A DNA stretch of 64,000 nucleotides, from positions 1,164,849 to 1,228,848 of the forward strand of contig CAUYUJ010016059.1 in NCBI GenBank assembly GCA_963575745.1, given 5' to 3'. Below, in pieces: positions 11,434 through 63,441 of the stretch; within the stretch, counting starts at the first letter, position 1, and the number at the start of each line of letters is the position of its first letter. The position numbers and the translations under genes were made by a program. Under the pieces are notes generated by a model. The model did not search any database, was not told the DNA's origin, and worked only from the letters and a program-made list of their open reading frames with translations. This DNA is from Prorocentrum cordatum. Its lineage: Eukaryota > Sar > Dinophyceae > Prorocentrales > Prorocentraceae.

Positions 11434-11511
11434 TCCCGCCAGGCCGAGGTAGGAGGCGCACGGCAGCAGCAGCCGGACGTCGGCCAGGCTGTGCACGAGC
11501 GGCACGGCGTC
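11434..11511 (-). CDS. TMTC-like gene, exon DAVPLVHS
   Basis: A 78-nt segment after GGGCCAG, encoding DAVPLVHSLADVRLLLPC then ASYLGLAG. It directly continues the preceding exon: LCYDYSM-DAVPLV corresponds to the TMTC sequence Y-D-W-S-M-(D/G)-x-(V/I)-P-L-(I/V)-x-S-x-x-D-x-R-N. The donor is either GC (exon end 11,434, phase 0) or GA two bases earlier (end 11,436, phase 1). A run of 19 G residues follows in the intron. Downstream exons for the PASN loop and TPR repeats should lie to the left, beyond the copia insertion or outside the window. Confidence 0.8.
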
Positions 11512-12049
11512 CTGGCCCACCCCCGGCATGGGGCGGCGGGCCCCATGCGGCCTGCGCCTCTGCACCCACACGTGAGCGCTCTTCCCTTCTGGGCCTCGGC
11601 ACGTGGCCGAGGGGAGGGGGATGGGGGGTTCTGGGTCTGGGCCGGTGCTTCGTCGATCTGCTTCTATAGCAGTCGCGAAAGCAGACTGGGCGGGGGGAGG
11701 GTTCTGACCAGTCGCCGAAAGTAGCCAACAAGAGCAGCCAAAATCATCTGGTCTGTGGGGGCAGGAAGGGGGGGGGCGGGTGCCCAGGCCGATCGGCGAA
11801 ACAATGCGTAAAACAACAACTACGTATCCCATCGTCTCCAAGTCCTTGCTCCGAGTCGCTCTCCATAAGTGTGGGGTGGGTGGGTCGCGTGGGGGGTAGA
11901 ATGAGCGTGTCCGGCACTGGGCGTCGGGGGGGTGGGATCGCGTTGAGGAAATGGACTCACGTGGGGGGGGTGAACAATCTGGAGTATCCTTGTCTTCCTC
12001 TTCCTGCTACCCCTGCCTCCTTCCTCCTCCCTCCTCCTCCCCCTGCCGC

Positions 12050-12110
12050 CTCCCTCCTCCTCCTCCTCCTCCTCCTCCTCCTCCTCCTCCTTCTCCCCCT
12101 CGATTTCCCC
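12050..12110. repeat. (TCC)n microsatellite
   Basis: Nearly pure TCC on the plus strand. Confidence 0.9.
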
Positions 12111-12617
12111 TCCTCCTTCTCCTCTTCATGGTTGGATTCGGCTCAAGCTTCGCTCAATGGCTCCGCTGCGCGCCGCGCGCGTGCCCGCGCCCCCGACTTC
12201 GTGGCGTACTCATGGCGCCCGATAGTGCGTCCAATAGCGCTTGGCGCTGGTGGTCGTTATGGGCCGCTATTTGGGAACCCGTGAACGCTACTGAGCGCGG
12301 TGCGCCCGCTCTTTGACGCTATTGGACGCTATTCGCCGATATGCACTCTGAGCAAGACGAGCGAAGCGTTCGTGGTTTACTATCGATCTGTCCGTCGTCG
12401 GCGAAACAGCCAGCCTGACGGCGGCGGCGCTGAACGGCGCCGTGGGCCACCGACGAGATCGCGGGCGCGGTCCCTGGGCGGGCGCGGGCGCAGCCGCGGG
12501 CAGGCGCGGCGCGGCGGCTAGCGCGGCTGCCGCAGCGGCGGGCGATGTGGTGATCGGGCGCAGCCCGCCCACTGCAGGTCCAGGGCACCAAAGCAAGCAC
12601 TCTTCCTCCTCTCGGGG

Positions 12618-12679
12618 GCGTCCAAGAGGAGGGCGTCCAAGAGAGGGGGCCGCAAATCATGGCCCGAGGCACGTGCGCG
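12618..12679 (+). repeat. Dispersed 62-bp repeat, copy 1
   Basis: Starts with two GCGTCCAAGAG words and ends GGCACGTGCGCG. A second copy is at 44,246-44,309 in the same orientation with about 80 percent identity by eye. Confidence 0.65.
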
Positions 12680-13685
12680 GCCAAAGGGCACCCAAAGATC
12701 GCATGGAAATGAGAAGAGGGGAGAAGACGGGCCATGACATCCGGGAAGATATCTTGGCCCGGGCCATGATAGTTGCTGGCCGCCCCCGATCCTCATCCTT
12801 TCTATTCCCGCTCCCCGCACCGTCCTGACCGGAACTCCAATCCAGGGTCACACGTCCAAAATCTCTTCCGTTTTGTTGGCGTCGGAGGGGGGGGGCCTTC
12901 GCAGGACGCGGCTCGAAAAACTGGCCAGGATGACCCCGGGACGGTTCGGGGGGAGCGATTTTGAAAGGGTTTTGGTCGGACCTCCCTTCGGTAAATCACG
13001 TTTCGGTGAAATCGGGGCAACAGGAAACCACTTTTCGGTCAAATCTTGTTCCAAGAAGAATGCCGAGATCTCGATAGGTTAGACGTCTGGGGGGCATTAC
13101 GCGGCCTGCATCGGCAAGTCTCCGAGCAACGAGTGAGACCGCGCGCTCCATGAATAGATGGATTTTCTCCACGGCACGAACCACCAACATGATGCCTCGA
13201 ATCTCGAGCACTGCATATCACCGCAGGCGGTCGGAGGATGGACCTGCACGATTATCATAGTTCTTCTCGGCGTTACCCCCCCCCTTGCACAATTAGTTCA
13301 AGCTCTCCCTCGAGTCTCTGCGCCCGCGGGGCGCGAGCGTAAAGCGTCGCACTCAGTGACTGCTGCGTCGCGTGTGCGCCTTCTGCAAGGCCAGCTGCAA
13401 TCCTCTCCTCCGTGGCCTGCTCCACCGCCCTCTCATCCACGCCTTCATCGTTCCCGCGATGCTCCAGTTGCCCATCCTACCTCTCGCTGTCGTCTCGGCT
13501 CGGCGCGTTTTATCATGTGGTGGGCTACTCCCCCTACCTCTGCTCCTCCCCCTCCTCTTCCTAACCGCCCCCTTCCTCCTCGTCCTCCCCATCGCGTGAA
13601 AACAAGAGACGTAATTCAAGAGATGCACTTTGAGGGATGTGCCGCGGCTGCTAGAGAAAGAGAAGGACAGGGTGTAGGAAACGGA

Positions 13686-13770
13686 AGAGGAGGAGGAGGA
13701 GGAGGAGGAGGAGGAGGAGGAGGAGGAGGAGGAGGAGGAGGATCAGGAGGATCAGGAGGAGGAGGAGGTT
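13686..13770. repeat. (GGA)n microsatellite
   Basis: Pure GGA for most of its length, with ATCAGGA variants at the end. Confidence 0.9.
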
Positions 13771-14919: not shown

Positions 14920-14968
14920 AGGAGGAGGAGGAGGAGAAGGAGGAGGAGGGGGAGGAGAGAAATGGGAG

Positions 14969-15092: not shown

Positions 15093-15188
15093 CATCGAGT
15101 AGTCGTAGCAGAGGAAGGTCGGCCAGAGAAGCAGGCGCACGTACATGCCGTGCACCAGCGAGTACGACAGGCGTCGAATCCAGGGATC
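15093..15188 (-). CDS. TMTC-like gene, DUF1736 exon
   Basis: A 96-nt, phase-0 exon after GAGAG and before a GC donor (ATG|GC). It encodes DPWIRRLSYSLVHGMY, VRLLLWP and FLCYDYSM. This is the core of DUF1736 in TMTC O-mannosyltransferases: R-x-L-(S/T)-Y-x-x-x-H-x-x-Y-x-x-L-L-x-P...L-x-Y-D-(Y/W)-S-M. It is the most diagnostic exon in the window. The reading frame continues into the intron only as non-conserved codons before a (TCC)n tract. The protein is expected to be a multi-pass ER membrane enzyme acting on lumenal substrates, but the catalytic N-terminal region is not in view. Confidence 0.85.
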
Positions 15189-17525: not shown

Positions 17526-17589
17526 CTCGGAGGCCGCCACGGGGTTGCTGTACGGGTCCATGCGGGCGATCTGCGTGCCCGACGTGTAC
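17526..17589 (-). CDS. TMTC-like gene, exon YTSGTQ..SNPVAASE
   Basis: A 64-nt exon (1 + 21 codons) after CCAGAG and before a GA donor (GAG|GA). It encodes YTSGTQIARMDPYSNPVAAS then E, corresponding to the TMTC lumenal segment G-x-x-x-x-x-x-x-D-x-x-x-N-P-x-x before DUF1736. Joined to the next exon it reads ASE-DPWIRRLSY. Upstream in the same strand lies a (GGA/GGGA)n tract and downstream a long (TCC)n tract, so ordinary ORF calling buries this exon inside repeat-encoded peptides. Confidence 0.8.
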
Positions 17590-22477: not shown

Positions 22478-22616
22478 CACACGCGCGCGCAGCACGCCGC
22501 GGCCCCCACGGCGAGCAGCACCACCAGGCGGACCAGGGCGGCCTCCCGGCGCGCCGCGGGCGGCGCTGGGCTGGCCCGCGACGGCGTCGCGTTGGCAGCG
22601 CGGAGGCGCCAGGCAA
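22478..22616 (-). CDS. TMTC-like gene, exon AWRLR..ARVW
   Basis: A 139-nt exon, the longest found (2 + 45 codons + 2), after TTGTCCAG. It encodes AWRLRAANATPSRA, an Ala/Pro-rich loop, the helix ALVRLVVLLAVGAAACC, then ARV and the first two bases of Trp. The chosen donor is GC at 22,477-22,476. A GT donor five bases earlier (after CGC, exon end 22,483) is possible with a different acceptor in the next exon. I prefer the GC option because it preserves the R-x-W that TMTC proteins carry just before the x-x-G...D-N-P element. The exon is embedded in GC-rich low-complexity DNA and adjoins a (GAC)n tract. Confidence 0.75.
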
Positions 22617-25750: not shown

Positions 25751-26376
25751 CGCGCCGCCGCGCTGCCCGCCGGCCACGCCGCTGCGCCGGCGCCACCCCG
25801 CCCGGCGCCGGCCGGCCTCCAGATTGGGAGGGCTGGGGCGGCCGCCCGCCAAGGCCGCCGCGGCCGTCGGCGCCGCCGCCGTGGCGTCACCGTCGCCGTC
25901 GACGTCGTCCTTGTGGTTGCCGCCGCCGTCGTGGTCGCTGCCGCCGTCGTAGTCGCTGAGGCTATCGTCGACACCGTCATCGTGGTCGTCCCCCGTCCCG
26001 TCCCCCCGATCTCTCAACCTGCTCTCTCCCATCCGTGCTGTCTCTCCCCCTCTGTTTGCCCTCCCTCCTCGTCCTCCTCCCTCCCCTCTTCCTACCATTC
26101 ACCCGTCTGCCCTCTGCATCTCCTCGCTTTCTCCTCCTCGTCACCATCCCCTTCTCATCCCTGGGCTCCTCCTCCTTCCTCCTACCCCGCCGCCATTATG
26201 TTTGCTCCCTCCTCCTCATCATCGCCGTCCCTCCTCTTCCTCCTCATCCTCCTCGCTCGTCCCTCCTCCTCCGCCCCCTCTCCTCCTGCTCTCTCCCGCT
26301 CCTCCTCCTGCTGCTCGTCATCCTGCCCCCCTTCCTCCTCCACCCTCCCCTTTCGTTCTGGTCGCGCCCCTGCGGC

Positions 26377-26443
26377 GGGCGTTCCTGGTGAGCCTGAGGA
26401 CCTCCCAAACGATGGGCAGCCCGAAGAAGGTGAAGCCCGTTTC
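26377..26443 (-). CDS. TMTC-like gene, exon ETGFTFFG
   Basis: A 67-nt exon (22 codons + 1) following CCCGAG and ending in C before a GC donor (26,376-26,375). It encodes ETGFTFFGLPIVWEVLRLTR then NA. This is the TMTC motif (S/C)-K-E-x-G-x-T-x-x-G, where the K lies in the previous exon. The single leftover base C plus TT of the next exon make Leu, producing NALAWRLRAA across the junction, which supports this donor over nearby GT and GA alternatives. Confidence 0.8.
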
Positions 26444-29790: not shown

Positions 29791-31707
29791 GGCCCGGCAC
29801 AGAAACGGAAAGAGCGCTGCAGCAACAGAAACCGAAATGACTCACACCACCGTTCGTACCGGGAGCCTTGGCGTTGAGAGCTGGTTACGTCACCCCTCGC
29901 TCTTGGGAGCCTTGGGGTTCAGAGATTGTTGCGTTGCCGCCCGTTCCTGAGCCTTGGCTGGGCCTTGGTGTCAGGAACTTGTTACGTCACCGCTCTCTGC
30001 TGGGAGCCTTGGTCTTATCAGCTTGTTTACGTCACCGTTCGCTCTTGGAAGCCTTGGTGTGAAGAGCTTTTTGCATTACCGATTGCTCTTGGCGTCTCTG
30101 GGCCTTCGTGGGAGTCCTATTGGGGCCCTTTTCGGGCTCTCCTGGTGGCCTCTTGGGGGCCTCTTGGGGGCCTCTTGGGGCTTCTTGGGGGTCTGTGGGG
30201 GCCTCCTGGGAGCGCCTTGGGGCGAAAGGCTAGACGTTCGGGTTCGTGGTCCCCCTCTTGGGGCCGTCTTGGGGCTTTCGTGGGCCGTCTTGAGCGTCTC
30301 TTGGGCTGTCTTGGGGCCCTCTTGGGCCGTTTGGAGGGCCTCTGGGGAGCCTCCTGGGCCGTCTTGAGGCGGTCTTGGGGGCCTCTTGGGCCGTCTTCAA
30401 CGCAGTGAAAGCCGAAAACCCGTGTATGCTAAAAATGCGCCTTTTCCCATAAGAAATCAATGATTTTCGCCTCCCGGCGGCCTCTTGGGACGCCTCTTGG
30501 GGGCCTCTTGGGGCTTCTTGGGGCGCTCTGAGGGCCTCCTGGGAGCGTCTTGGGGCGAAAGGCTAGACTTTTCGGTTCGTGGTCCCCCTCTTGGGGCCGT
30601 CTTGGCGCCCTCTTGGGCCGTCTTGAGCGCCTCTTGGGCAGTCTTGGGGCCCTCTTGAGCCGTTTTGGGGGCCTCTTGGGAGCCTCTTGGGCCGTCTCGG
30701 GGCGGTCTTGGGGGCCTCTTGGGCCGTCTCGTCAACGCCGTGAAAGCCGACAAAGCGCATATGCTAAAAATATACGTTTCCCGTGGAAAATCTATGATTT
30801 CGGCCTCTTGGGGGCCCTCTTGGGACGACCCTTGGACGCCTCTTGGGGGCCTCTTGGGCCGTCTTGGGCGGTCTTGGGCTCTCTTGGAGCGCTCTTGGGC
30901 CGTCTTGGGAGGAAACCCGAAAAACATGCAAAAACCCGAGGGGAAACCCGAAAACGGCCATTAACGCCCAAATGGGCACGCTACCCCCCTCCCCTGGAAC
31001 CCCTCCCTTTAGGGCTTCGCCCACACCAGAACGTCATCACTCGTACCTCGCTCTTTCCGTTACCTGGCCCGGCACAGAAACGGAAAGAGCGCTTCAGAAA
31101 GAGAAACCGAAATTACTCACACCACCGTTCGCACTGGGAGCCTTGGCGTTGAGAGCTTGTTACGTCACCCCTCGCTCTTGGGAGCCTTGGTGTGCAGAGA
31201 TTGTTGCGTTGCCGCCTGTTCCTGAGCCTTGGCTGGGCGTTGTTGTCAGGAACTTGTTACGTCACCGCTCTCTGCTGGGAGCCTTGGTCTTATCAGCTTG
31301 TTTACGTCACCGGTCGCTCTTGGGAGCCTTGGCGTGAAGAGCTTTTTGTGGTACCGATCACTCTTTATTTGGCGTCTCTGGGCCTTCTTGGGAGTCCTAT
31401 TGGGGCCTTTTCAGCCTCTTCGGCTTGGGGGGCTCGGGGGGCCTCCTGGGAGCTTCGTGGGGCGAAAGGCTAGACTTTTCGGTTCGTGGTCCCCCTCTTG
31501 GGGCCGTCTTGGCGCCGTCTTGGGCCGTCTTGGGCGCCTCTTGGGCCGTCTTGGGGCCCTCTTGGGCCGTTTTGGGGGCCTCTTGGGAGCCTCTTGGGCC
31601 GTCTCTGGGCGGTCTTTAGGGCCTCTTGGACCGTCTTCAACGCCGTGAAAGTCGAAAAACCTCGTATGCTAAAAATGTACATTTCCCAATAGGAACTCAA
31701 TGATTTT
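29791..31707 (-). repeat. AAGAGGCCC-family block with 1,275-bp duplication
   Basis: GGCCCGGCACAGAAACGG occurs at 29,791 and again at 31,066. After each comes a roughly 46-bp minisatellite (GGGAGCCTTGG...TTACGTCACC, five units; 29,858-30,090 and 31,130-31,370), then the 11-bp-type repeat in minus orientation, then a conserved end with ATGCTAAAAAT. The ending recurs at about 30,424, 30,758 and 31,663. A third, partial module occupies 30,467-31,065. Confidence 0.75.
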
Positions 31708-31819: not shown

Positions 31820-32240
31820 GAAGGCCCGAAAGGGCCAAATTCATTGAATTGCCTAAGGTGTTTCAAGGATTGTGGCTTTTGCTTCTTTTCAGCTCTCCGA
31901 CGGCCCAAAACGGCCCAAGAGGCCCCGAAAATTGCCCCCAGAGCGCCCGAGAGGCCTCCAAGATGCCCCCATGACAGCCCAGGAGACCCCATGACAGCCC
32001 AAGACGGCCCAAAAGAGGCCCCAAGACGGCCCAAGAGGCCCCCAAGACGCCCAAGATGGCCTCCAGAACGGCCAAGATGGCCTCCAAGATGCTTCCAAGA
32101 CGGCGAAGGAGGCCTTCAAGACGGCGAAGGTGGCCCCAAAATGTACCCAAGACGGCCCCAGATGGCCTGAAGATGGCCTGAGACTGTCCAAAGGCCCGCC
32201 ATAGGCCTCCAACGCGGCCCAAGACCCTTCCAAGACGTTC
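31820..32240 (+). repeat. AAGAGGCCC-family block, plus orientation
   Basis: Core TTCAAGGATTGTGGCTTTTG at about 31,862 corresponds to the core at 440-520 and 55,868-55,920, followed by GGCCCAAGA-type repeats every 10-12 bp. Confidence 0.7.
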
Positions 32241-33334: not shown

Positions 33335-34081
33335 TCAGGCGGGCGGCAGCACGAAGCCCAGCTCTGCCGCGAGCTGCTCCGCCTCAGCCCTGGAATCCAC
33401 CGCTCTCTTGTCGAACTCCTGGAGCGCCTTCCGCAGTGACGCCAGCGGCCCGCGCTCCCGGAACTCTCGCGCGGGCGGCCGCAGCATCAGCATGTTCCGC
33501 ATGCACGTGGCGCGGGGGAACATGACGTAGAGGTGCAGCCACCACATCTCGTCCGACATGCCCGTGCGGCCAGCGTCCTCATCCCTGGCGCAGTCGACGG
33601 TGACGCCCTTGCGCAGCGTCTGGCCCTGCGACAGCGTGGAGTTCAGGTAGGACGCATGCGTCAGGGTGAACCCCGAGCAGCGCACAGTGTGCGCCCCCGA
33701 GCTTTGCCACGTGAACTCCTGCTCGCTGGGCCTGAACATGAGCAAGTTCCTCGCCCGCTCTTCGGCCTCGCCGTCGTCGGCAGCGCCATCGGCGCCCTGC
33801 AGCAGCACCTCGGCGACCTCCTTGCAGACCGGGGACTCCTGGAAGCCGTGCACCTGCAGCCAGATTCCCTGCGGTAGGAAGCGGGGGCGGAAGAGCTGGC
33901 CCGGCGCGCACTCCTCGTAGTCCCGCTCGTCGTCTGCGTGAAACTCGAAGGGCACAATGGTGGCCCGTTGCTCCTGCACGAGCCCCAACTTCTTCTTCAG
34001 CTCCTCCTGCACGGCCGTGAACCGGACCTCCATGCCGACGTGTGCCGGTAAGACGCCGTGGATGTCTCCCGTCTTGTGCAT
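33335..34081 (-). pseudogene. Pif1-like SF1 helicase, C-terminal fragment
   Basis: A 248-residue open frame starting MHKTGDIHGVLPAHVGM and ending at a TGA. Near residues 145-160 it has LTHASYLNSTLSQGQTL, which corresponds to helicase motif V (T-x-H-x-x-Q-G-x-T), then GVTVDCAR, and then WWLHLYVMFPRATCMRNMLM, corresponding to motif VI with F-P-R in place of L-S-R. The N-terminal ATPase core (Walker A and B) is absent. The frame begins only a few bases from the 160-bp satellite, so the satellite marks the truncation, or alternatively an intron boundary. Pif1-like helicases unwind DNA; many dinoflagellate copies appear mobile, and Helitrons carry related helicases, but no other Helitron hallmark is visible. 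Confidence 0.6.
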
Positions 34082-35094
34082 GTTCGGGTCTCCCGCCTGA
34101 GACTTCCTCGCAATTCACTCACAGACGAGGCTCCCGCTCGAGACTTCCTTCATACTCAAGCCTCAAAAGCCCAAAAGCGACGACAGTTACAAGGTTCCGA
34201 TGGCCCGCTCGGATTAATAACATGATCGGCGGGCCCCATAAGGAGGGCGCTCCAGCCTGAGACGTCCTCGCAATTCACTCAGAGACGACGCTCCCGCCGG
34301 ATACTTCCTCCATATTCAAGCCTCAAGAGCCCAAAAGTGACGACGGTTACAAGGTTCTGATGACCCGCTCGGATTAATAACATGATCTGCGGGCCCCATA
34401 GAGAGGGGGCTCCCGCCTGAGACTTCCTCGCAATGCACTCACAGACGAGGCTCCCGCCTGATACTTCCTTCATATTGAAGCCTCAGAGGCCCAAAGTGAC
34501 GACGGTTACAAGGTTCCGATGACCCGCTCGGATTAATAACATGATCGGCGGGCCCCATAGGGAGGGAGCTCCCGCCTGAGACGTCCTCGCAATTCACTCA
34601 CAGACGAAGCTCCCGCTCGAGACTTTCTTCATATTCAAGCCTCAAGAGCCCAAAAGTGACGACAGTTACAGGGTTCCGATGACCCGCTCGGATTAATAAC
34701 ATGATCGGCGGGCCCCATAAAAAGGGCGCTCCAGCCTGAGACGTCCTCGCAATTCACTCAGAGACGAGGCTCCCGCCGGATACTTCCTCCATATTCAAGC
34801 CTCAAGAGCCCAAAAGTGACGACAGGTACACGGTTCCGATGACCCGCTCGGATTAATAACATGATCTGCGGGCCCCATAGGGAGGGGGCTCCCGCCTGAG
34901 ACTTCCTCGCAATTCACTCACAGACGAGGCTCCCGCCTGATACTTCCTTCATATTGAAGCCTCAGAGGCCCAAAAGTGACGACAGTTACAGGGTTCCGAT
35001 GACCCGCTCGGATTAGTAACATGACCTGCGGGCCCCATAGGGAGGGGGCTCCCGCCTGAGACTTCCTCGCAATTCACTCAGAGGCTCCCGCCTG
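34082..35094. repeat. 160-bp satellite with 480-bp higher-order repeat
   Basis: CCTGAGAC(T/G)TCCTCGCAATTC begins at 34,096, 34,256, 34,416, 34,575, 34,735, 34,895 and 35,055, giving spacings of 160, 160, 159, 160, 160 and 160. Units differ in three diagnostic places. Units 1 and 4 share CTCGAGACTT and GCTCCAG; 2 and 5 share CCGGATACTTCCTCC and ATCTGCGGG; 3 and 6 share CCTGATACTTCCTTCATATTG. So the array is two repeats of a three-unit block plus a partial seventh unit. Confidence 0.9.
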
Positions 35095-35835: not shown

Positions 35836-35892
35836 CTTGCACAGGCCGGCGACCACGAACAGGGCGCACGCCACGACCAGCCGCACAAGACC
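35836..35892 (-). CDS. TMTC-like gene, exon GLVRLV..LCK
   Basis: A 57-nt, phase-0 exon between GCGCAG (35,894-35,893) and a GC donor (AAG|GC at 35,835-35,834). It encodes GLVRLVVACALFVVAGLCK, a transmembrane helix ending in L-C-K. In TMTC proteins this is immediately followed by E-x-G-(I/F)-T, which is exactly how the next exon (26,377-26,443) begins. A read-through of the donor stays open briefly (APWPDLSW) but then meets a stop. A cluster of GTTCTNAGAAC palindromes lies about 220-330 bases upstream in the intron. Confidence 0.7.
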
Positions 35893-36229: not shown

Positions 36230-37500
36230 GACGCTTCGCCACTGCTTGAAGGAGATGCCCTTCTGTGCGCGGCTTGCCGACGGCCAACCGCGGTGCGACC
36301 GTGGCGGCCTGCGCGCCTGGTCTTGCCACCCGCGCGCCCACCGAGGGCCGCGCACCGGAGGCCACCCCGGGCGACGATCCGCTCCTGCGCGCACCGGGCC
36401 TCGAGCACCGAGGGGCGAGTCTCCAGCGCCGAGTGCGCTCCGATCGGCTACACTCGGGAGCCCACAAAGGACGTACGCGCCCAGCTATGTACATGAACAC
36501 GGCCCCTCGATCTGCGAGACCGGCCGCGTGATACGAACTGTTGGGCAATGCGTACGTGTACGTCCTTCTTTCGCTCTTGATACACAGGAGTGGCCCTAGG
36601 TAAGAGTGACCTGGGGTGTGCGGCTTCTTTTAGGGGGCGCGGGGTGACCAAACACAAGCACGCAAGACGCTACCATCGCACCGCGCTCAGCGATTGGGGG
36701 GACCCCGTGAAGCCGCACCAAAGGCCGCACCAAAGGCCACCCTGGCGAAGGGTCACCCTTACGCGCAGTCGAAACCAGGCCTGGCTGGGGCGCCCTGAAG
36801 CCCGGGATCGGCGCCGTGGTGCCCGAGAGTACCGTTGGGGGTTCCATCGGGGGCGCCTCGGGCGCGCCCAGGGTACCTGAAGGCCCGGATGGATGCTCGA
36901 GCCCCGCTCATCCACACGGCTCAGTTCAGGGGAGACAGACCCGGAGTGAAGCGGACCCTGGGACCCCAGGGTCTTCCCGCGGGGACCAGCTGACGCCCTG
37001 AACTACTTTGTTGACGCCCCTGGAGCCTGTGAAGGGCCCAAGAAGCCCGAATCTGGCAAGCAGAATCTGAGGACCCGTCCCCCTCAGTTGCGATAGCGAA
37101 AATACGAGGAGACGACCAGAGGACGGCGATGGCGAACGACGAGAAGATGGGAATGACAGCGACGGCGGCCGCCTCTGCCTGGCGCATCTGCTTGGCAGAG
37201 ACGCAGGGCGCGTACACCTCGGCGGACAGCAGCAGCACCTACCCGGCGCTGCCTCCCCCCCCCCTCGTGCACAGAGGCGCCTGCGCTCTCCCCGGAAGGC
37301 GCCAGATCTTCCGTCCCCCTCGTCCTGCCTACTGGACACCATGCGTGAGGGCAGAACAATGAGGGAGAGAGGGGGAGAGGACAAGTTAGGTGCGCTCGCG
37401 TCAACATCTGACATCCTACCCCTCCCTCCCATCCCTTACCATGGCGCTGATTTTCTCTATCCGCGGACGCGTGTCGTAGCGGACCTGTGGCTCCGCGCGC
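36230..37500. other. Unassigned GC-rich intronic DNA
   Basis: No recognised gene. The minus strand at about 37,100-37,206 is open as VYAPCVSAKQMRQ followed by a hydrophobic run, with AG and GC boundaries available, and may be an exon of something; I could not place it in the TMTC-like protein. Confidence 0.3.
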
Positions 37501-46886: not shown

Positions 46887-47711
46887 TCAGACTCTGTGAA
46901 TCCGCCGATGAAGACAACTTTGGTTTTTTTTTTCCGCGCGTTGACGTAGAGCCCGAAAGCGGGGCCAGCATCGGCCCATAACCAAAAAACTCACAGGGAA
47001 AGCCTCGTACACCTGCCCCGAAGAGATGCCCGCATCATCGGCGAATGCACCAACACTGTGCACAAGTTGCGGGAGCAGAAGACAGATGTTGCGCAAGACC
47101 GGGTCGATCGTCAGCGCGAACAGCGACCCGCTGACTGGGCATCCCTGCTTAACTCCTCGACCGATCCAATATCCTATATCCTCATGAAAACCACCATAAG
47201 AAATCGAAACCCGAACCTTACCGTAGAGACACTGAATAGCACGGATGATATACTGCGGGATGCCCACAGCAGAAAGCGTGGCGAACGTGGCAGAATGCAG
47301 CAGGCTGGGCAACGCGGCGCATACGTCGTACAGGATGATCCCGCACCGCTGCGCACGCCGCTGTACGTGCCAATGCAGAGCTCGAAACTCTAGCTCCAGG
47401 ATATGTTCAATCATATTTCGCCCAGGGATAAAGCCACGCTGGTCACGTATACAGGTAAGCCGACATACTGAACTAAGAGGACGCTTCGCCGCTAGAGAGA
47501 CGAGCTTGTTGGCCGCACGCGACATCGCGAGGGGTCGCGTGACCTCTGGGCTCCAAGCAAACAACTTCAAATCCTCATCCTCCGAGCCTTTTTGCCAGGA
47601 AAATAGTGAGCCCGTAGTTGGAAGTCCCATGGCACGTGCCATGCTCCAAGATGTGCTCATATAGCTTGCGCAGCGGACGAAGCCCAGCATCCCCTGCCCT
47701 AGACCACCCAC
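46887..47711 (-). pseudogene. LINE B reverse transcriptase core
   Basis: Contains DQRGFIPGRNMIEH (block 2), LYDVCAALPSLL (motif A Asp), GRGVKQGCPVSGSLF (motif B) and GAFADDAGI (motif C). After QVYEAF the frame is lost, and the continuation KVVFIGGFTESEF and KYGKYLGINLGPDSA lies in other frames around 46,800-46,930. Frame breaks coincide with A-runs, so some may be sequence errors. Confidence 0.75.
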
Positions 47712-48609
47712 TGTATGGAATCCCAGCAGGCCCTGGAGCAGTAGCCCGAGTCTTCGAATCCATGGCCAGAAGTTCCTCCTCGTCTAACTTCCAAAGCTGT
47801 GACCCGGGGGCCCTCTGGACATGCTCTAGAAATCCAGCAATCAAGCGACGGTCTGCAGGTGCATCAGCATGCACACGGCCCCAATGGGCGGCAAGTGCAC
47901 GAGCACCCTCACGAGGACAAAGAATCGGCACTCCAAGCGGGTCAGTAACGGCTTGTAACGGAATCCTCGCTGCTGCTGAATTCCATGCGGACCGAAAAGT
48001 AGAGAGATGGTTTATCTTGTTGCGCTGTTTCTGTTTGCTAAGTTTCCCATCATTCTGAACTTCGGCAAACTGCTGATCAATCTGCTGACGATTTAGGGCG
48101 CTGAAGTGGGTGAAGAAGCCGTTATAGTCCCGATAGGTACCGGTGTGCTGGTCGAAATAGGCACCCAACTTTGGGTAAGCCGGAAGCGCACGACGAAGCA
48201 AATATACGTCACCAGCATGCTCCGCACGCATAGCGGCGAGCGACCGCGCGATAAACTTGGGCGTCGAGGCAGCGCCCTTCTCTTCAAGACGATGCTGAAC
48301 TTGTTTCGAGGCGTGATGGATCGCGGCTCGATTCTCTTCAACCCGGGCGACTGGACAGGATGAGGGCTCTCCGGCAGCTCCAAAGAGCTCTTGGAGGACC
48401 TTAGGGTACAAGTTGTGCTTGGTGACCCAAGAGGGAACTTTAGGGATGCCACGGGGAGCCCTGGGAGCGAGTACGGCATAAACAGGTACATGATCTGTCA
48501 ACGTAGAAGTATTAGCCACACACCCCAGAGTGCCGGAACTCGGACATAGATCCAAGAGTACAGCTGCTGGAAGAGTAAAACAAATCCTGTCCAGCCTTGC
48601 CAGGGACAC
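47575..48609 (-). pseudogene. LINE B endonuclease C-terminus and RT N-terminal part
   Basis: The open frame begins SLARLDRICFTLP, the D-R motif of the APE endonuclease, followed by TDHVPVYAVL, the D-H motif. Residues from IPKVPSWVTKH onward are the linker to RT. Further on, ATAPGPAGIPYSGW is the first RT block. The frame ends at 47,575 after FLAKRLGG. The endonuclease N-terminal half (Asn and Glu catalytic motifs) is missing. Confidence 0.75.
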
Positions 48610-48610
48610 C

Positions 48611-48673
48611 AGAGGAGGAGGAGGAGGGGGAGGAGGAGGAGGAGGAGGAGGAGGAGGAGGAGGAGGAGGAGGA
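48611..48673. repeat. (GGA)n tract between LINE A and LINE B
   Basis: On the minus strand LINE A ends ...GCTGGGCTCC followed by (TCC)n, and LINE B begins at its far side. Confidence 0.85.
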
Positions 48674-48704
48674 GCCCAGCGTACCGAGGGGTTCGTCAGC
48701 CACG

Positions 48705-51700
48705 CTAGCCGCGGGGCGACCGCGCCTTGTCGACGCCGAGGCCGACGAGAGGCGAGGCGGGTCGCGCGGGCGCGGGCCTGGATGAGGCAGCTGCGCTGGT
48801 CGGGGAAGTTGCCGACGGGGCGGCCATCGGCCGAGAAGTAGTTTCAATCAGAGGCTGGTGAGAAGTCGAGAGGACAGATTCAGAGACGGAGAGCGGCGGC
48901 GGCGGATGCCGCGGATGGCAGAGGGGGGGGGGGGGGACAGGCGAGACGGCAGAGGGCAGCAGCAAGGCAGCCTCGAGAGGGGGAGGGGGCGGGGAAGAGA
49001 TGGGGGCGGTCGAAAAGATAAAGCGGCGAGTGCGCCCAGCAGCTGGGATACGCAAAACTCGGGAGGGAGGGTCAATCCTGAGACCGTGGAGAATATTCGG
49101 AAAGGCGTGGCCACTCGATGGGTCGAGCGACGGGGTAATGGCGGGAAACAGTGAAGGCACAAACGCGGAGGGAGGGGGAGCAGGCGAGGGGCAAGCAGAG
49201 GCAGGGGCAGAGTTCAACGGAGCGAGGGGCGAGGCGAGGGAGGAGATGAAAGATCGCTCTAAGATGGGCGCAGGATGCACGTGCAGGAGAGGCGAGATGA
49301 CGGGATGAATAGAACAAATGTTCTCGACTGGGGGCTCATGACGGGAAAGCGATCCCGCCGCGGAACTGGGAGAGGCAGGAGATATCCTCTGGGAGCACGG
49401 AGACGCCGAGGACGCACAGCAGGAGGCAATCCGCGAGGAGGAGGCCGCCACCCACGGAGCGGTCGGAGCAATCGACGACGTCAGAGTAGCCGAAATCGAG
49501 GAGCAGGGCGGGTGCGGGGAAGACAAGGCCATAGGCGTCGTCGATAGAAGGCGTCCGTGCATCGAGCGCCCCACTGCAATCGACACCACAGAGCTGGATG
49601 GCGGCGCCTCGCAATTTACTCGAGCCTGGGGCAGCGGGTTCGAGGAGCACCCGCGGCCAGGACTTTGCGATCTGACACCAACAGAAGGGAAAGGCCACGC
49701 CTCGCAATTTACTCGAGGAGCCTGGGAAGGCGGGCTCGAGGAGCACCCGCCACCAGGACTTTGCGATCTGACGCCTTCAGCACCAAAGGCGGGAAGAGAC
49801 CAAGCCACCTCGTCGCAATTTACTCCAGATGCCTGCTCAGACGGGATCGAGGAGCACCCCCTGGCAGGACTTGGCGTTCTGACATCATGCACCGCCGCAA
49901 CAGGGCGGAGGTCGAGCATGACGAGGTCGTCCGAGTCGTCCGCATCCTCCGAGGAGCTGGGAGATGATGATCCAGACGTCGTCGAAAGCGGGGGCATGGT
50001 CGCGCTGCGCGAAGAGGAGGAGGAAGAACTCGACGACGAAGATGAACTTGAGGAGGAGCTGGCAGGACGGGGCACACGAGGAGGCCAGTGGGGAACAAGT
50101 GAAGCTCGTTCCTCGTCCGAAGCACGAGAGGGGTGCGCGAGACGCATCGCCCTCACCCCCGCCAGAGCGCATGCGTGGGTCTGCTGTGCAGAGAGCGGCC
50201 ACTCACGGATGGTGCGGGCCTCGTTGTACATGTTGTACGCGGCCGTGAGCAGCGAGAACGAGGAGAACGAAGGAGACGCCAGACCCCGGCGAGAAAACCA
50301 ATCGAGCGGAAAAGGGCGTGCCAAAGCCCGTCTGAGAGCACGATGCATAGGTGGGGATCTCGTATAGTGACGGAGGGGCTCGATTCGCTGCATGCATCCG
50401 AACGCGCAAGGTCTCTGGCCCAGCGGGGAGATGATCCTTGCCGAAGTCATCGAGCCGTCACACCAGGTGCGCAGCGCGGCCCATGCCCACGAGCACGGAC
50501 AGCGAGCAAGCATCGCGGCACAGCTGTCCCAGTCGATAGAGTCGAGACGGTCCCTCGCACGCCCAGCAATCTGCATCAGCCGCCGGCGGAAGAGAACCTG
50601 AATCGGCCGAGCCGAACACGCAAGTTGGCGTAGAGCAAGGTGTGCAGCACGCTGAGGCCGAGATCGCTGTCCAGGGGCAGGGGAGAGAGCGGCGCGAGCA
50701 GCAGGGAGCGCGGCATCCAGGAGGGCAGAGAGACCAGAACCCTCAGGAGCACGGCCGAGAGCAGCAGCCTCCAGGTTCTCCGCCAGCGCCGTGGACTTCC
50801 AGAAGCCAGGATACAGGCGCCCGTGCGGCAGCATGTCGAGCGTCACGTCGGTGTCCCTCGCGGCGATGTGCTCGCGCATGCGGGACAGGATGGGCTCCCA
50901 GCACGGGTAAGTGAGCAGCGCAGCGCGCGTGATGGATGCCGCAGCCACGTGCGCCCATCGGATGATCCTGGGCGCCCCCCACCTCTCCAGCTGCACCCAC
51001 ACGTCGAGACCGAAGGTGCCGAGAGGAAGACGATAAACTTGTGCCAGCACTGCAAGCTCGGGTTGAAGGACCGAGCGCGGGATCCAGGAGAACTGTGCCA
51101 CGTACGAGAGAGTAGTAACAGCGCGGGAATTGTATAACTGGGCGGACTGGCTGGCAGGAGTGGTGCCACGGCCAATAGCTTGAGCCCGCAAACGCAGCTT
51201 AGTGAGCGGGTCGGTCCACGAACGATCGGGGGCGGCCCCAGGACCCAGCGAGATGCCCAGGTAGAGCAGGCAGTCGACCACTTCAAAGGAGGACCACTCG
51301 GGGACCCAGTAGGAGATCTCCTGGAGGACGCGGGTGGCGAGCTCGGGGGAGAAGGGCCCGCAGAGAGGGACCACCTTGCACTTGCTGACCTTCAACGCGA
51401 GGTTGGCCATGCCAGAGGCCTTGGACACCGCCCCGAAGACTCGAACGAGGTCGGCGATCGCGGAGAGCGCGCCCCCAATGTCGTCCGCACAGGCCCGCAC
51501 GAGGCCAGATAAGGGAAGCTCAACCACTTGGACCAGCTCAGAGAGGAAAGCAGCCGTACTGAACGCAAATAACGATCCCGAGAGAGCGCAGCCCTGAATG
51601 ATGCCACTGTCAATCCAATATACATGTTCAAGAGTCCCCTGCACCATAGCAACCCCGCCGATCGCAGCGTACAGGAAAGCGACGAAGTCGAGGAAGCGAT

Positions 51701-52307
51701 CAGGGAGCCCGAGAGTCCGAAGAGCGAGGGTCATGAAGCCTTGGTTCAGGGACGGGAAGGCCTGGCCGAAGTCCAGGGGGTACAAGAGCGGGATATCCAG
51801 GGAACCATGGGGAATGACCGAGAGCATCCTGGCCGAAGCGTCGAGCTCGATGATATTCTCACCGAAGTTGCGGCGAGGGATGAACCCGCGCTGGCAAGAG
51901 GGGATGAGGTCCAGGGCAGGGCGAACAGCACGATTCATCGTCGCAGAGATGAGCTTGATGTCACAATTCCTAAGACCGAGGACACGAACTTTGTCTGGGG
52001 CCCGCACGAACCCCCCTGATTGCAACTCGTTGTCAGTGACATTTTTTCGGCAGGAAGATCTGAATAGTGTCCGATGCAGAGGCGAACAGGAACTGGCCAT
52101 CTCCGATCCACTCGAGAGGACCCCATAGAACCTCCACAGCAAAGGGGTGGGCCTGCCACGCAGCATATGGAAGAGCGTCGGGGCCAGGAGCGGAGTGTTG
52201 AGCGCCACGAATAGCAGCACGGAGCATAGCACGGGAAGGCGGGGGGAGATGAAGATCATCAGCACGGGGCAGGAGACGATGGAGGTAGGGGCGAGCAGCG
52301 TCTTCAT
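48705..52307 (-). pseudogene. LINE A reverse transcriptase with long Ser/Pro tail
   Basis: The frame is genuine from about residue 90. Before that, another frame holds the first RT block (APGPDALPYAAW at 52,160-52,195), so a shift lies near 52,050. Landmarks: CQRGFIPRRNF (about 138-148), LDFGQAFPSLN with Asp179, SGIIQGCALSGSLF (about 234-247), RACADDIGG with ADD at 274-276, then VSKCKVVPL. The finger CAFGCMQRIEPLRHY follows. After about residue 740 comes a 460-residue Ser/Pro-rich extension including a poly-Ser run and a threefold repeat. The length far exceeds ordinary LINE RT proteins. Confidence 0.8.
49590..49905 (-). repeat. Threefold repeat in LINE A tail (about 100 bp)
   Basis: Three units encode VR(S/T)(Q/P)SP..GCSS.P..(Q)A..VNC(D/E). 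CGCAATTTACT and GACTTTGCGATCTGAC are the best-conserved DNA words. Confidence 0.7.
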
Positions 52308-52404
52308 CCCAAGGCTTCTTCCTGAAAGTGGGACCCCAGTAGTCGGTGAGGGCCGTCAGCCGCTGGGACGGGTCGGAGACAATCTCGCCACTCGCAAGAC
52401 GAAC

Positions 52405-54530
52405 TCACGAGAGGGAGACCCGACGATTCAGAGGTGACCACAATCTCGCTCTGCGCTCCAAAGCTCTGATCTGAAGTCTGATTTGAGCACGGCCCCCCAG
52501 ACGACGACGGCGAGCTTCCAACTCCTCCTTGGCGGCGGCCGCTGCAGCAGACTGGATCTCATCGACCCAGGCCTGGAACGAAGGAGGATGTATCAGCTCA
52601 ACCTTGCCAGCCCGCACATTGGTCATGCCCACAGCCACGGGATGCGATTCCTGAAGGCGGCGCGCAAGCGGAACGTCTTGACGCCAGACAACTCGTGCCA
52701 GTGCTCGTGCAAGCTGGAGAAGGGCGTGGGGAGGATGAGGGCGAGCACGGAAGAGACGATCCCGAACTTCGGCAGAGGCGATTTTCAGCAACTTTTTGTA
52801 GTGCTCGAGCTTGACGGGCGGGAACATCTGGGACCAGTCGGAGGCCTTGATGAGACCCTCGCGGCGCTGCTTGAACGCTGGCTCGTGGAATATGTGCTTG
52901 GGAATGGCTCGCTCGTCCTGAACCCTGGGGGCCCTGGAGGCGAAAGAGATCAGCACGGCGGCGTGGTCCGAGACGCATCTATCCGACGCTAACGCAGCCG
53001 AGTCGACAGTCGACGCCTGAACCACAAGTTGACACATCTGCCATCCCGAGAGCGAGCAAAAGAATCGATCGATGGACGATTCAGCATTCCCAGCACGCTC
53101 ATAGTGCGATGGGGCATCACTTTCAATCTCAAGCAGCGGGGCAAGAGCGCCCCGCCACTGCGGAGCGCGGGCCTGGTGCTGCCGCGCACTCCGCCGCACA
53201 GCCGCAGCGGGCATATGCAGCAGGACGGACTCGTGCGAGGAAAAGTTGAAGTCGCCATTGACCACGACCATATGCGAGTCTGGTGCTCGCCCAGACGCAG
53301 CCCGAGCAGCACGGATATCACGTGCAACGCGAGCAACTTCTGCCAAATAAAGACCATGATTGTGTACGTTGTACACCTGAAGGCATACATCTCCCAAAGA
53401 TATATCAACCCGAAGAACGCGCCCAGGGACGATAGGGGCAGGAGGATGGACGACAGCACCAGGACGAAGAGGAGGAAGTACGACTGCGACGCCCCCACGG
53501 ATGCTGCCGCCAGCATCAGCGTCACAAAAGCTAGAGCGCACAGTAAGAGCACGTGCCACTGTGCCCAAGAAAGAGACAAGTTGATGATGATCCTGGTGGA
53601 CCTCCTGGAGAGAAAGGACCGTCTCAGACAGACGGAGCTTGATGAGGTACTGGCGCTTCAGATCTGCTTTCTCTCCTCCAGCTTGCAAGAGCGCCCTGGC
53701 GTTCCAGGAGGCAAAGCGAAGCGGTCTCGCCGAAGAGGAAGAAGACGGCGAGGAGGAGCGAAAGAGGGAGCACGCGCTAAAGAGACCACTGGCTGGTCTC
53801 GACTGGGTGGGCGATCTCCTTGGTCGCCTCGCGGAGGCGGGCAACATCCATGCGGTTGTGCTCGAGCTTCGGGATGTCCCAGTAGATGACGGGGGGGGGG
53901 GGGGGGGGGGGCGCCCCCCCGAGGCGACCTCGATCTGCATGATCTTGTCCCAACCAACCAGCAGGGCGCCACGCTCGCGGTCGGTGTAGATCCGCTTCCC
54001 AGGGTAAGCCTCCTCCACCAATCTGCGCACTCTACGGAGGACGATCTCCTGCTTGATCTGCTTGGGGCTCCTGTCGGGGCCGAGGTGGATGCGGCAGCGC
54101 ACATCGCCAGGCGGGGTAATCCAAAATGCTTTCCATTCTGTGCCTTCGCGTAGGTTGGCAAGGACACGGTCGACCTTGCGGGAAGCGACCCCGACGGGGC
54201 CGTTGAACTTGATCTCGAAACGCTTGCATGGGACCGTGCCTTTGGCAGCGATCTGGCAGTCGTTGCTGGCACTCTCAAAACCGATAGAAGACAGCCAGGG
54301 AGCCAGCACCTCACGAACACTTTCCAATGAAGAGGGGCGCTGGGGGATGGCCACAACCATGGTCGTGTCAATGTCGCGATTGAAGCCAGCAGGAACTTGT
54401 GACTGGGGACGAGGACGGGCCTCAGCGAGAGCGAGTTCTTTCCTGAGCTCGGCCATCTCCCGACGGATGTCCACGAGGTCCTGGTCGTGCTTGGCGGTTG
54501 CTGGAAGAGTGGGCGTCGATGGCGCCCTTC
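52405..54530 (-). pseudogene. LINE A RNA-binding-like domain and APE endonuclease
   Basis: Begins in frame near DLVDIRREMAELRKELALAE, continues with a compact domain having VRCRIHLGPDRSPKQIKQEI and RIYTDRERGALLVGWDK, then a Pro-rich loop at the G20 run. The endonuclease has RFASWNARALL (Asn), VLSLQEVHQD (Glu), VVNGDFNFS (G-D-F-N), SIDRFFCS (Asp-Arg) and VSDHAAVLIS (S-D-H), the full set of APE/EEP catalytic motifs in order. Between the G20 run and RFASWN the better frame is DIPKLEHNRMDVARLREATK, so a shift occurs there. Endonuclease nicks target DNA to prime reverse transcription. Confidence 0.8.
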
Positions 54531-55184
54531 TGCTGGTCGATCTGGGCCTGCAGCCTGCGCGACAGAGAGTCAGGCTGGGGTGTGGCGGCCTTGCGCACAT
54601 CGGCCTCGAGGGTCTCGGTGTGGGTTTGGACCAGGGCTCTGAGATTCTCCACGGCGGCGAGCAGGGGCTTGTTGCTCTCGGCGGCGGTCTTGGCAATGGA
54701 GTCACCAAAGTCCTCCTTGATGGAGTCAAACTCGGCACGGCATAACTGGCGAATGAAGTCTTCGTAGCCTTCGGGCATCTCGTCGTCCAGAGCAGGGGGG
54801 CAACTCAGCGTCAGCGTCATCATGAACAGCCTCCCCAGGGAGGGCGCGACGCTTCTGCGGGTTGGGGTCGGTGAAGCGGGACGGAGCAGCTCCTTTGCCT
54901 TGAACTTTACCTTTGCCAGACTTGACCTCCTGGGACGGGAAGGTCGGTGCATCCTCCAGCTGCTCGAGCTGCGAGGTCGTGAGCTCATCACCGCGAGGGC
55001 TCGCCACCATCACCGCAAGTTGACTGGTCGAGGGAAGAGACGGTGCGGGGGCCCAACTCCCGCGGTAAAGGCACAAGATAACGATCAGAAGACTGATGAG
55101 CGGGCTGGAGAGTGGCCTCAAAGCGGAACCTCCCTCGCGCTCAGGTGTCGCCCCGAAAGACTCGCGGTCGTCGGGACGGTTCAT
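54422..55184 (-). pseudogene. LINE A first coding region (ORF1-like)
   Basis: The ATG at 55,182-55,184 opens MNRPDDRESFGATPEREGG, three bases after the spliced leader. A short hydrophobic stretch (LISLLIVILCLY) follows. The frame shifts after ALPGEAVHD near 54,820, and the second frame carries DDEMPEGYEDFIRQLC and a coiled-coil-like run (ENLRALVQTHTETLEADV). A second shift near 54,530 leads into the frame of the next feature. The basic and coiled-coil character fits an RNA-binding chaperone-like N-terminal region. Confidence 0.6.
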
Positions 55185-55639: not shown

Positions 55640-56260
55640 AGGGGGGGCGGTCAGATACGCATCCCCCCATGAGGGCCCCAGGGTCTCCGAAATGGCCCCC
55701 AAGAGTGCCCCATGAGGCCCCCGAGACCGTCTGAGAGGGCCCCGGAACGCGAAACTATCGGTCCCAAACGCATTCACGCCCTCAAGACTGCTCATGAGGC
55801 CGCCCAGACGTCCCAAGACGCCTCCAAGAGTGCAAGAGTTGTTCCGAGAAGGGCCACGCGGCAATTCAATGATTTCCCATTGGCTTTTTCAAGATTTGGG
55901 TGTGTTCGCCTTTTCCGCTCCCCGCCGCTCCAAGACGGCCCAAGAGGGCCACCACAAAATCCAAGAGGACCCCAAGACACCCCACAACGCCTCCAAGACG
56001 GCCCAAGAGGCCCCCAAGACGGCTCAAAGAACGTGCCCAGACGGGGGACCCGAACGGACATTTCGAGCTCTCGGCCCCGAGGAGGTTCCCAGGAGGTTCC
56101 CAGGACGTCCCCAAGAGGCTCCAAGAGGTTCCCAGGAAGCCCGAAGCGGCCCCAAGTGGCTCCCCAGAGGCCCCACAGAGGCTCCCAAGAGGCCACAGAA
56201 TTCCTCCCCAGAGGCCCCCGAGAGCCTTCCGAAGAGACTCAAAGAAGCACCCCCCCTGGC
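55640..56260 (+). repeat. AAGAGGCCC-family block
   Basis: Contains the family core (CAATGATTTCCCATTGGCTT at 55,866) and the second core (GAACGGACATTTCGAGCTC at about 56,050), with 10-12-bp CCCAAGA repeats between and after. Same orientation as 111-936. Confidence 0.75.
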
Positions 56261-56804
56261 TCACGTCAGCGTCGTCGTCGCCGCCGCCGTTGTCGTCGTC
56301 ATCCACCTTCAGGGTCGGCGGCACCGGCCGTAAGGCCTTGGCAATACACTTGGACGGTCGATCGAGACAATCACCTTTCTAACAAATCTGGGCCAGCTTC
56401 CTGGAAATTTCTGTTGTTAACACTGGAGAGACAAACGTGCTCAAGAAACTGGGACAACTGTCTGACAAGTTGGATAATAAACGCTGGCAGAGCTTTTCGA
56501 GAAGAAACTTCTGAATCAGATGCTCGGCATGGGAAGGGAATGTTCCGTCGTGATTTCTCACGGCGCGGGAAACTCTCAGACTCCCGGGAAGGCGCCTGCA
56601 AACACAGGATGTCCGCGCGGCCGACGACGTAGCAGATGCTCTCGGAGTGCACCTCGACAAAAAGAAGCTGGCGGGGCGCACTAGCACCTCCTGCCTATCG
56701 CCACACGATCTGCGTGAAACCGTGAAGCCATGCAGGATCTGTTAGCATCGAGTGGGAAAATCAGCCTCGAATATGCGCGTCGGCTCGGACTGCACTAGCG
56801 CGGA
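56261..56804. other. Unassigned DNA with short open frames
   Basis: Plus strand 56,470-56,745 shows LAELFEKKLLNQMLGMGREC and then ADDVADALGVHLDKKKLAG in different frames, suggestive of an old coding relic, not identified. Confidence 0.25.
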
Positions 56805-60133: not shown

Positions 60134-60194
60134 TGCCTGGACTGGTCGAATCTCTGGCGCTGCCGCGGCGGAAGGCAAGCAGGGCCGCGGCGGC

Positions 60195-60265
60195 GGACCG
60201 GGTGTGCCGCGAACAGCGCCGCCAGCAGCGCGCTCCAGGCCCCGGACAGGCCGAGGCAGCGCCGC
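60195..60265 (-). CDS. TMTC-like gene, exon 3
   Basis: A 71-nt exon (1 + 23 codons + 1) after CCAG and before a GC donor (60,194-60,193). It encodes a membrane-like segment ending WSALLAALFAAHPV, the conserved TMTC element A-L-L-F-A-x-H-P-V-H that precedes the E-A-V..V-V-G-R motif. The last base C should begin the His codon completed by the next exon. That short exon (roughly 38-41 nt expected) was not located with confidence. A stretch at 58,409-58,434 reads AMAVVGR but its junctions do not fit in phase. Confidence 0.7.
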
Positions 60266-61515: not shown

Positions 61516-61546
<31 letters not shown>

Positions 61547-61644
61547 GCGCACGAACGCGCGCACACGCACACACACACACACACACGCACACACGCACAC
61601 ACGCACACACGCACACACGCACACACGCACACACGCACACACAC

Positions 61645-61705
<61 letters not shown>

Positions 61706-61806
61706 TACACCTACACCTACACATACACATACACCTACACCTACATCTACACCTACACCTACACCTACACCTACACCTACACCTACACCTACACATACAC
61801 CTACAC

Positions 61807-61837
<31 letters not shown>

Positions 61838-61979
61838 TCACATACACATACACATACACACACGCACGCACATACCTGGCTGGAACGCGATTGAAGAACG
61901 AAATACTGCACGCCCACCCGTTTCCTCAGGACCCCTTTCCCTCCGCGGCGGCCAAATACCCTCCCCCCGCGCGCCCCTC
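60266..61979 (-). other. Intron between visible exons 2 and 3
   Basis: A 1.7-kb intron. Its right half is a CA-type microsatellite (61,397-61,866). The left part holds GC-rich unique-looking DNA, including a minus-strand poly-Ala frame ending HLRVALFA near 60,940-61,050. That frame was considered as an alternative exon and rejected because the exon at 60,195-60,265 fits better. Confidence 0.5.
61397..61866. repeat. (CA)n, (CACATA)n and (CACCTA)n microsatellite
   Basis: Starts as ACAGAC hexamers, then CACG tetramers, then ACACAT and ACACCT hexamers. It shows stepwise change of unit along its length. Confidence 0.95.
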
Positions 61980-62040
61980 CCGAACAGGCCGAGCTGAAAG
62001 CTGGCGATTGCGTGGAACACCGCGTTGGTCACGTAGAACC
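61980..62040 (-). CDS. TMTC-like gene, exon 2
   Basis: A 61-nt exon (2 + 19 codons + 2) bounded by an AG acceptor at 62,042-62,041 and a GA donor at 61,979-61,978. It encodes FYVTNAVFHAIASFQLGLF, a hydrophobic stretch matching the TMTC pattern F-H-x-x-N-x-x-x-H-A. It follows the LLHG loop of exon 1 in the right order, and both junctions are phase-compatible with exons 1 and 3. The GA donor is non-canonical but known in dinoflagellates. Nothing else in the surrounding 1.5 kb is open in a conserved way. Confidence 0.7.
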
Positions 62041-63357
62041 CTCGCCGCCCCCCTCCTCTGCGGCTGCGCCGCCTCGGCGCCCCCAGCTCCCTGAGCCACC
62101 CGCCCGCCCGCCACCGCCTCCCCGCCTCCCCCATTCCGGGCCCTGCCCCTGCGATTCCGGCGCTGCCTGATGGGGGGCCACACGGTCGGACAGTTCTGCT
62201 CGGCGTGTCGCAGGGGCGGCCCTGGCCCCAGCGACGCGCCTTGCCTCGAGGCGGATGGCGTGTCGCCTCGCTCCGCGGGGCAGCAGGCTGGGAAAGGCCC
62301 GGGACGTTGACGTTCGGGGACCGGGACGTGGATAGCGTGCCGGGCCGAAGCGTTGTGTGCCAGAACCAGCGGCGTGGCACTCTGAGCCAAAGCTTTTGAC
62401 CGTAATCGGAGGGGGGGGCGAAGACAGGTGCACCTTTGGCGCACCTTCGGGGCCCCAGAGGGGGCCCTTTTGCTGCCCTTTCCTGTGAGGCCTCCTTCCA
62501 CCCTCTTCGGACAATCAGCTCCCCCCGCTTCCCTGTCCACCCAAGGCATCCGATGTCGTGAGTCGCCTCCCCATTTCACCCCGAATTGTTCTCTGACGGC
62601 TCAGTGGCATCTGGGATGCCGAAATTGAGCAAAAACCCTCACACAATGCAACGGGGAATCCAGGGCCAACCAACTAGATTGCCTCGTGCCCGCCTTACGC
62701 AGTCGAAGTAGAAAACGTGCGCCGTTAACCGACAGGCCAGGAGCGATCGGAACAAACTTGTGACACACCATGAGGACCCATAACAACGAGACCTGCCCGT
62801 GAGCGTGGAGGTGTGAACGGATGTGCTCCTTCTCTGTTTGTTTTTCTCTCTCTCTCTCTGTATACGCTCAAATGTACACGCATGTTAGTGTGCACAGGCC
62901 ATTCTCTATGCGTTACACCTTTGGACAGCTCAAGGGCACAATTGCCACCATGCATGACAAGTGCTGATGCACGCTTGCCTCCCGACTTCCAGGTCCAAAA
63001 TAGTCATGGGGATGCGAGTCCTATGTGACTGTTGTGACATCCTGCAGGTTCTCATTGATGGCTTCAGTAGGCATCTGCGCTTACGCTTCGAACTCGCCGA
63101 TGGTCGCAGCAGGTTTGCACGCTGAAATTCTGTAGACATGAGAAGAACGACCTTGACAAGATACAGCCCGACAAACGAAACGCTTTGGCAAAGGCATCCA
63201 GGGAAGCAATCGAAAGGGAAAGGACTGCTTAGCAGAAGCCAAGACCTGACTAGTCAACGCCAGTACAAGGGGGTCGGGTGATTTGCTTCTCCCTTGACTA
63301 TTCTGCTTAGTTCGAAGCTTATGGCAAATTCTCTCCTGCCCGACCGTCCCCGATGAC
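62041..63357 (-). other. Intron between visible exons 1 and 2
   Basis: About 1.3 kb without recognisable protein or element. It contains a short (TC)n run near 62,848 and GC-rich low-complexity DNA at 62,050-62,480, including CCTTTAGGG/GGGGCCCC-like blocks also seen at 10.2 and 22.3 kb. Nothing else was seen. Confidence 0.5.
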
Positions 63358-63441
63358 CATTGGAGTCGAAGCCGTGCAGGAGGTAGTTCCACCGCAAGAG
63401 GGTAGTGAGGCGGTCAGATGATCGATTCAGGGGAGGAGGCA
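63358..63441 (-). CDS. TMTC-like gene, exon 1 of those visible
   Basis: Minus-strand open segment that reads ...DRLTTLLRWNYLLHGFDSN and ends in the first base of a Gly codon before a GT donor at 63,357-63,356. TMTC proteins carry an R-P-L-T-T-L-x-x-R-x-N-Y-x-L-H-G segment in the first lumenal loop, shortly before a membrane helix, and this matches it well. The following exon starts with two bases that complete the Gly codon. The 5' limit is uncertain: I took the nearest AG (63,443-63,442), but homology is clear only from about 63,415. Upstream exons, including the N-terminal acidic motif expected in this family, are not visible in the last 560 bases of the window. Confidence 0.65.

Follow-up and report, generated by a model that had tools for sequence, protein, structure and literature searches.

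The window analysed here, 64,000 nucleotides of genomic DNA from Prorocentrum cordatum, contains eleven minus-strand exons that run from 63,441 down to 11,440 (about 52,000 bases), and the gene to which they belong continues past both window ends. The exons are as follows, with tblastn matches of related proteins (P numbers) where these single out a segment:

63358..63441, minus strand: exon E1; core 63394-63358 (RWNYLLHGFDSN), 63441-63395 doubtful; GT donor, phase 1
61980..62040, minus strand: exon E2 (GFYVTNAVFHAIASFQLGLF); GA donor, phase 2; P0001, E 9e-8
60199..60265, minus strand: exon E3 (RRCLGLSGAWSALLAALFAAHP); GT donor, phase 0; P0001, E 3e-8
56596..56652, minus strand: exon E4 (VHSESICYVVGRADILCLQ); carries motif M3, RxD; GC donor; P0001, E 5e-8
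37173..37238, minus strand: exon E5 (VLLLSAEVYAPCVSAKQMRQAE); preceded by a 19,357-bp intron; GC donor; P0001, E 2e-7
35836..35892, minus strand: exon E6 (GLVRLVVACALFVVAGLCK); supplies the K of motif M4; GC donor; P0001, E 9e-6
26366..26443, minus strand: exon E7 (ETGFTFFGLPIVWEVLRLTRNARRRG); supplies ETGFT of M4; GC donor; P0001, E 2e-9
22478..22542, minus strand: exon E8 (AALVRLVVLLAVGAAACCARVW); GC donor, phase 2; P0009, E 5e-6 (match overruns the exon), and P0005, E 3e-4
17526..17589, minus strand: exon E9 (YTSGTQIARMDPYSNPVAASE); GA donor; P0006, E 3e-9
15093..15188, minus strand: exon E10 (DPWIRRLSYSLVHGMYVRLLLWPTFLCYDYSM); first part of DUF1736, with D-Y at motif M5; GC donor
11440..11511, minus strand: exon E11 (DAVPLVHSLADVRLLLPCASYLGL); last part of DUF1736; donor likely GC; P0004, E 5e-6

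Joined, these segments give 767 nt that read as a single open frame of 255 residues through ten phase-compatible junctions. The exons, their order, their compatible phases and their splice dinucleotides are present in the DNA as listed, and so is the family match described below. Exons E2 to E11 measure 57-96 nt, and introns 1 to 10 span 1317, 1714, 3546, 19357, 1280, 9392, 3823, 4888, 2337 and 3581 bp, with a mean of 5.1 kb. The ten junctions use GT twice, GA twice and GC six times as donor, and all ten acceptors are AG/G (the slash marks the splice site). A first-pass annotation had proposed ten segments, which it did not list, with AG acceptors, GT, GC or GA donors and matching phases; these features are seen at all ten internal junctions and the segments are real, but the count was one short. 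The span that it gave was right in substance, although the 5′ boundary at 63441 is doubtful and E11 may end at either 11440 or 11434, with no junction bearing on the choice.

The exon map combines three criteria: splice dinucleotides, phases, and how long the related proteins are. Candidate exons were drawn up with an AG/G acceptor required, and the ends at E5/E6, E7/E8 and E9 were chosen among several sites to suit the lengths of P0001, P0006 and P0004. Because these ends were fitted to relatives and AG/G was preferred, the gapless fit at those places and the ten of ten AG/G acceptors arise partly by construction. An exon first proposed at 40.7 kb (GRAQTMIAAAL) was discarded, as P0001 aligns with the one at 37.2 kb instead, and a first guess at the E9/E10 junction proved three residues too short and was revised once relatives were seen.

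The family assignment comes from Pfam. A scan of the minus strand first showed a DUF1736-like segment at 15188-15093, and the full eleven-exon chain matches PF08409 (TMTC_DUF1736) at 66.3 bits (E 2.5e-18; curated cut-off 27). E10 scores 33.2 bits with flanking residues and 27.0 bits for the 30 residues that correspond to model positions 21-50, while E11 alone aligns to positions 51-73 at 16.5 bits, under the cut-off; the two exons are therefore adjoining parts of one domain, 3.6 kb apart. Joined E9-E11 reached 59.5 bits, still with the first, three-residue-short junction. The proposal of a TMTC-type gene over at least 52 kb of the minus strand is thus borne out by the eleven-exon chain: the joined protein does match DUF1736, where lack of any TMTC or DUF1736 match had been named in advance as grounds for rejection, and the two hallmark strings, LSYSLVHGMY and LCYDYSM, both lie within the single exon 15188-15093. 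The chain also matched Rhomboid, but at 14.4 bits this is below the cut-off of 22.6 and was treated as noise. Four of six short pieces sent to Pfam gave no match, nor did five pieces sent to NCBIfam; Rfam returned zero matches at gathering scores, and a PDB search gave a single weak, irrelevant match (E 0.35).

Could the segments be chance open stretches, chosen to resemble TMTC where there is no gene? The window is GC-rich and has 261 ORFs of at least 120 aa, stop to stop, which gives such a selection ample material. We therefore consider the outcome of a tblastn test with eight relatives, selected by hand from 45 listed, at a threshold of at least 28 bits. These gave 71 matches, every one on the minus strand, of which 70 overlap exons; each of the eleven exons is matched by at least one relative, and the sole off-exon match is that of P0116 at 36.5 kb (28.1 bits). 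Query order is strictly kept in six of the eight, one overlong match each breaking it for P0038 and P0116. The reversed window yielded 4 matches and 15 local decamer shuffles 0-3 each (best 34.3 bits), far below the counts for the true sequence. With these controls, the PF08409 match and the alignment to the continuous relative P0001 all concurring, chance assembly was rejected and is, in our judgement, vanishingly improbable.

P0001 is a protein of 122 aa encoded on a 579-nt contig (source ‘ena’), and it was recovered in a first protein search whose query joined nine of the eleven exons, with E5 and E8 missing and E7 and E9 shortened; nine proteins were found at E 0.001 or better. It aligns to the window protein at 86% identity over 120 residues without a gap, from E2/E3 to E6/E7 and thus across five junctions, and its tblastn matches fall on E2, E3, E4, E5, E6 and E7 in order (E 9e-6 to 2e-9). 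Junctions E2/E3, E3/E4 and E6/E7 had already been joined in the query before P0001 was known, and E5 was one candidate in a list until P0001 singled it out. Unlike the window, P0001 is a continuous fragment, and its record does not state whether it is cDNA or DNA.

Further searches with P0004 (25 proteins listed) and P0010 (144 found and 120 listed, with scoring limited to the 7997 candidates sharing most words) widened the set of relatives. The ten best of the 45 relatives listed (536-850 aa) share 59-66% identity with the window protein over 243-260 aligned positions. P0038 (815 aa), P0116 from Effrenium voratum and P0042 resemble it at 60-66% identity over about 255 positions, and P0038 also has KETGFT, GRAD and D-Y. 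The named sources among the matches listed are Symbiodinium, Durusdinium, Effrenium, Polarella and Perkinsus, and some sources call the proteins ‘Tmtc4’, ‘TMTC4’, ‘tmtc3’ or ‘dolichyl-phosphate-mannose--protein mannosyltransferase’. Several relatives bear transcript-assembly names (TRINITY, MMETSP), which we counted in favour of a gene. P0008 is continuous through HP-VH, where the window has a 3.5-kb intron (at 56652, minus strand); an intron gain or loss at this site is possible.

A tree was built from 98 rows, namely the window and 97 relatives that covered at least about 200 residues or were among P0001-P0003. The window pairs with P0001 (support 100/100) within a clade of 23 rows (97/90), whose members include P0024 and P0116, both from Effrenium voratum. 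That several TMTC-type proteins are listed under single dinoflagellate names, such as Effrenium voratum and Durusdinium trenchii, fits the view that this TMTC copy, one among several paralogues, is incomplete or in decay, and so does the failure of E1 to match the HKSFRP region of relatives. Such a pseudogene would, however, hardly be expected to keep phase and splice dinucleotides at ten junctions, 255 codons without a stop and a GC3 of 0.94 across E2-E11. The high identity to P0001 and the short end branch of the window in the tree (0.064) also speak against decay, and we regard a pseudogene as improbable.

The start of E1 is less clear than the remainder of the chain. Only 63394-63358 looks coding; the 15 codons upstream have a GC3 of 0.53. 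P0038, P0116 and P0042 carry MDD...HKSFRP ahead of RWNY, whereas the window codons at that place read NRSSDRLTTLL. The HKSFRP motif (M2, SHKSYRP, in EL1) is absent from E1 as drawn and present in 63 of the 138 proteins collected, many of which are fragments. The minus-strand coding signal appears to begin at 63394, at TTG/CGG, a place without an AG acceptor. One explanation is that E1 begins there by a non-AG 3′ splice site or that the assembly has a miscalled base, and that the exon with HKSFRP (MDD...THKSFRPLTVLTF) lies beyond the window. The jump in GC3, the onset of clear homology and a pyrimidine-rich stretch directly upstream all point to position 63394. On the other hand, the other ten acceptors are all placed at AG/G, and tblastn of P0038, P0040 and P0042 aligns the upstream codons weakly (28.5-30.4 bits). 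On balance we give this explanation an even chance.

The protein was compared with the human TMTC motifs M1-M7 through the motif list in the accessible part of PMC7801869. It shares PF08409, RxD and KE(T/Q)xxT with human TMTC1-4. The RxD of M3 (EL2) is GRAD in E4, and M4 is KETGFT, which spans the 9,392-bp intron between E6 and E7. The acidic D of M5, which coordinates a metal in the models published there, is present in CYDYSM in E10. Human TMTC1-4, according to the same source, have D-W at M5, while the window protein lacks the W (not required by the Pfam cut-off) and has Y instead. Among 111 pattern-matched relatives, out of 138 collected, M5 is DY in 108, EY in 2 and DW in 1. The catalytic DD of M1 (EL1) was not seen within the window, while relatives have it; M6, M7 and the C-terminal TPR repeats were likewise not found within the window and are present in P0004 and P0010. 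Below 11440, a tblastn search with P0004 for C-terminal exons gave no convincing match.

Two regions of retroelement sequence were identified by Pfam:

46890..54804, minus strand: LINE-type retroelement within the 19.4-kb intron 4, with an endonuclease ORF and two RVT_1 matches
2228..6526, minus strand: Copia-type retrotransposon downstream of E11, with RVT_2 above its cut-off at 76.9 bits and an integrase at 28.6 bits, under its cut-off of 32.6

Both kinds lie on the same strand as the gene. Half of the ten ORFs sent to Pfam matched (5/10) and half did not (5/10), and Pfam gave nothing for the open stretches that continue beyond the Copia-type region as far as 9643. The idea of a gene stuffed with transposons therefore stands for these two regions, but much of the remaining intron DNA is simple or tandem repeat and the rest is without assignment. 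The two RVT_1 matches are separate (46890-47783 and 48708-52355, minus strand) inside one intron, which suggests either two LINE copies or one rearranged copy. A tandem array at 34086-35080 (160-nt unit, 6.2 copies, 90% matches) adjoins an open stretch at 33338-34114 on the minus strand; the latter, with 259 codons and a GC3 of 0.90, looks coding and has no Pfam match at E 0.001. A dispersed minisatellite of the CCAAGAGGCCC type occurs at 294-861, 30100-31637, 31902-32168 and 55664-56218 in units of 10-11, 21 and 32 nt and in both orientations. As for the intron ends, an exact inverted repeat of at least 8 nt within 30 nt of the ends was found in 1 of 10 introns against 2 of 300 random pairs, and hence there is no clear introner signature.

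The architecture is striking in appearance, yet it is normal for the genome of such an alga. The accessible part of PMC10666404 gives for P. cordatum a GC content of 59.7%, a mean intron of 4709 bp, donor shares of 24.7% GT, 51.4% GC and 23.8% GA, and AGG at 79.7% of acceptors. Because the intron length, the donor mix and the GC content of the window (about 60%) agree with these values, the gene is ordinary for this species. Its exons are shorter than the average of 239.9 bp given in that same part of the paper. A dinoflagellate intron of 26,372 bp appears in the accessible part of PMC11453091.

Taken together, the locus is best explained as the central part of one minus-strand, protein-coding TMTC (PF08409) gene with long introns, spliced through AG/G acceptors and GT, GC or GA donors, and we hold this with near certainty. 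The gene is probably transcribed and spliced in P. cordatum: splicing of a long pre-mRNA at AG/G acceptors and relaxed donors would take out introns, between 1.3 and 19.4 kb in length, which retroelements and simple repeats have filled. Its product would be a TMTC-type protein that crosses the ER membrane several times, and by family it is predicted to be enzymatically active, transferring mannose from dolichyl-phosphate-mannose to Ser/Thr of secretory proteins.

Among the papers that a literature search listed, none was by its title or abstract on dinoflagellate TMTCs or O-mannosylation; in the accessible part of a microalgal review (PMC7773692) ‘TMTC’ is absent and ‘dinoflagellate’ occurs in a reference only. 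Tentatively, and as a reading that we think possible but rather less than probable, the window may belong to an expanded dinoflagellate TMTC branch in which the metal site changed from D-W to D-Y, here with M4 assembled by splicing across 9.4 kb of intron and a non-AG acceptor perhaps in use at one exon. If the D-Y branch is real, it would point to an unstudied algal pathway of ER O-mannosylation whose targets differ from animal cadherins. Where ORF calling fails, a gene that spans 52 kb or more in exons of 57-96 nt is recoverable from raw, GC-rich, repeat-filled sequence, provided GC and GA donors are allowed. The present locus also supplies a gene structure for a TMTC branch with seemingly many members among public sequences.
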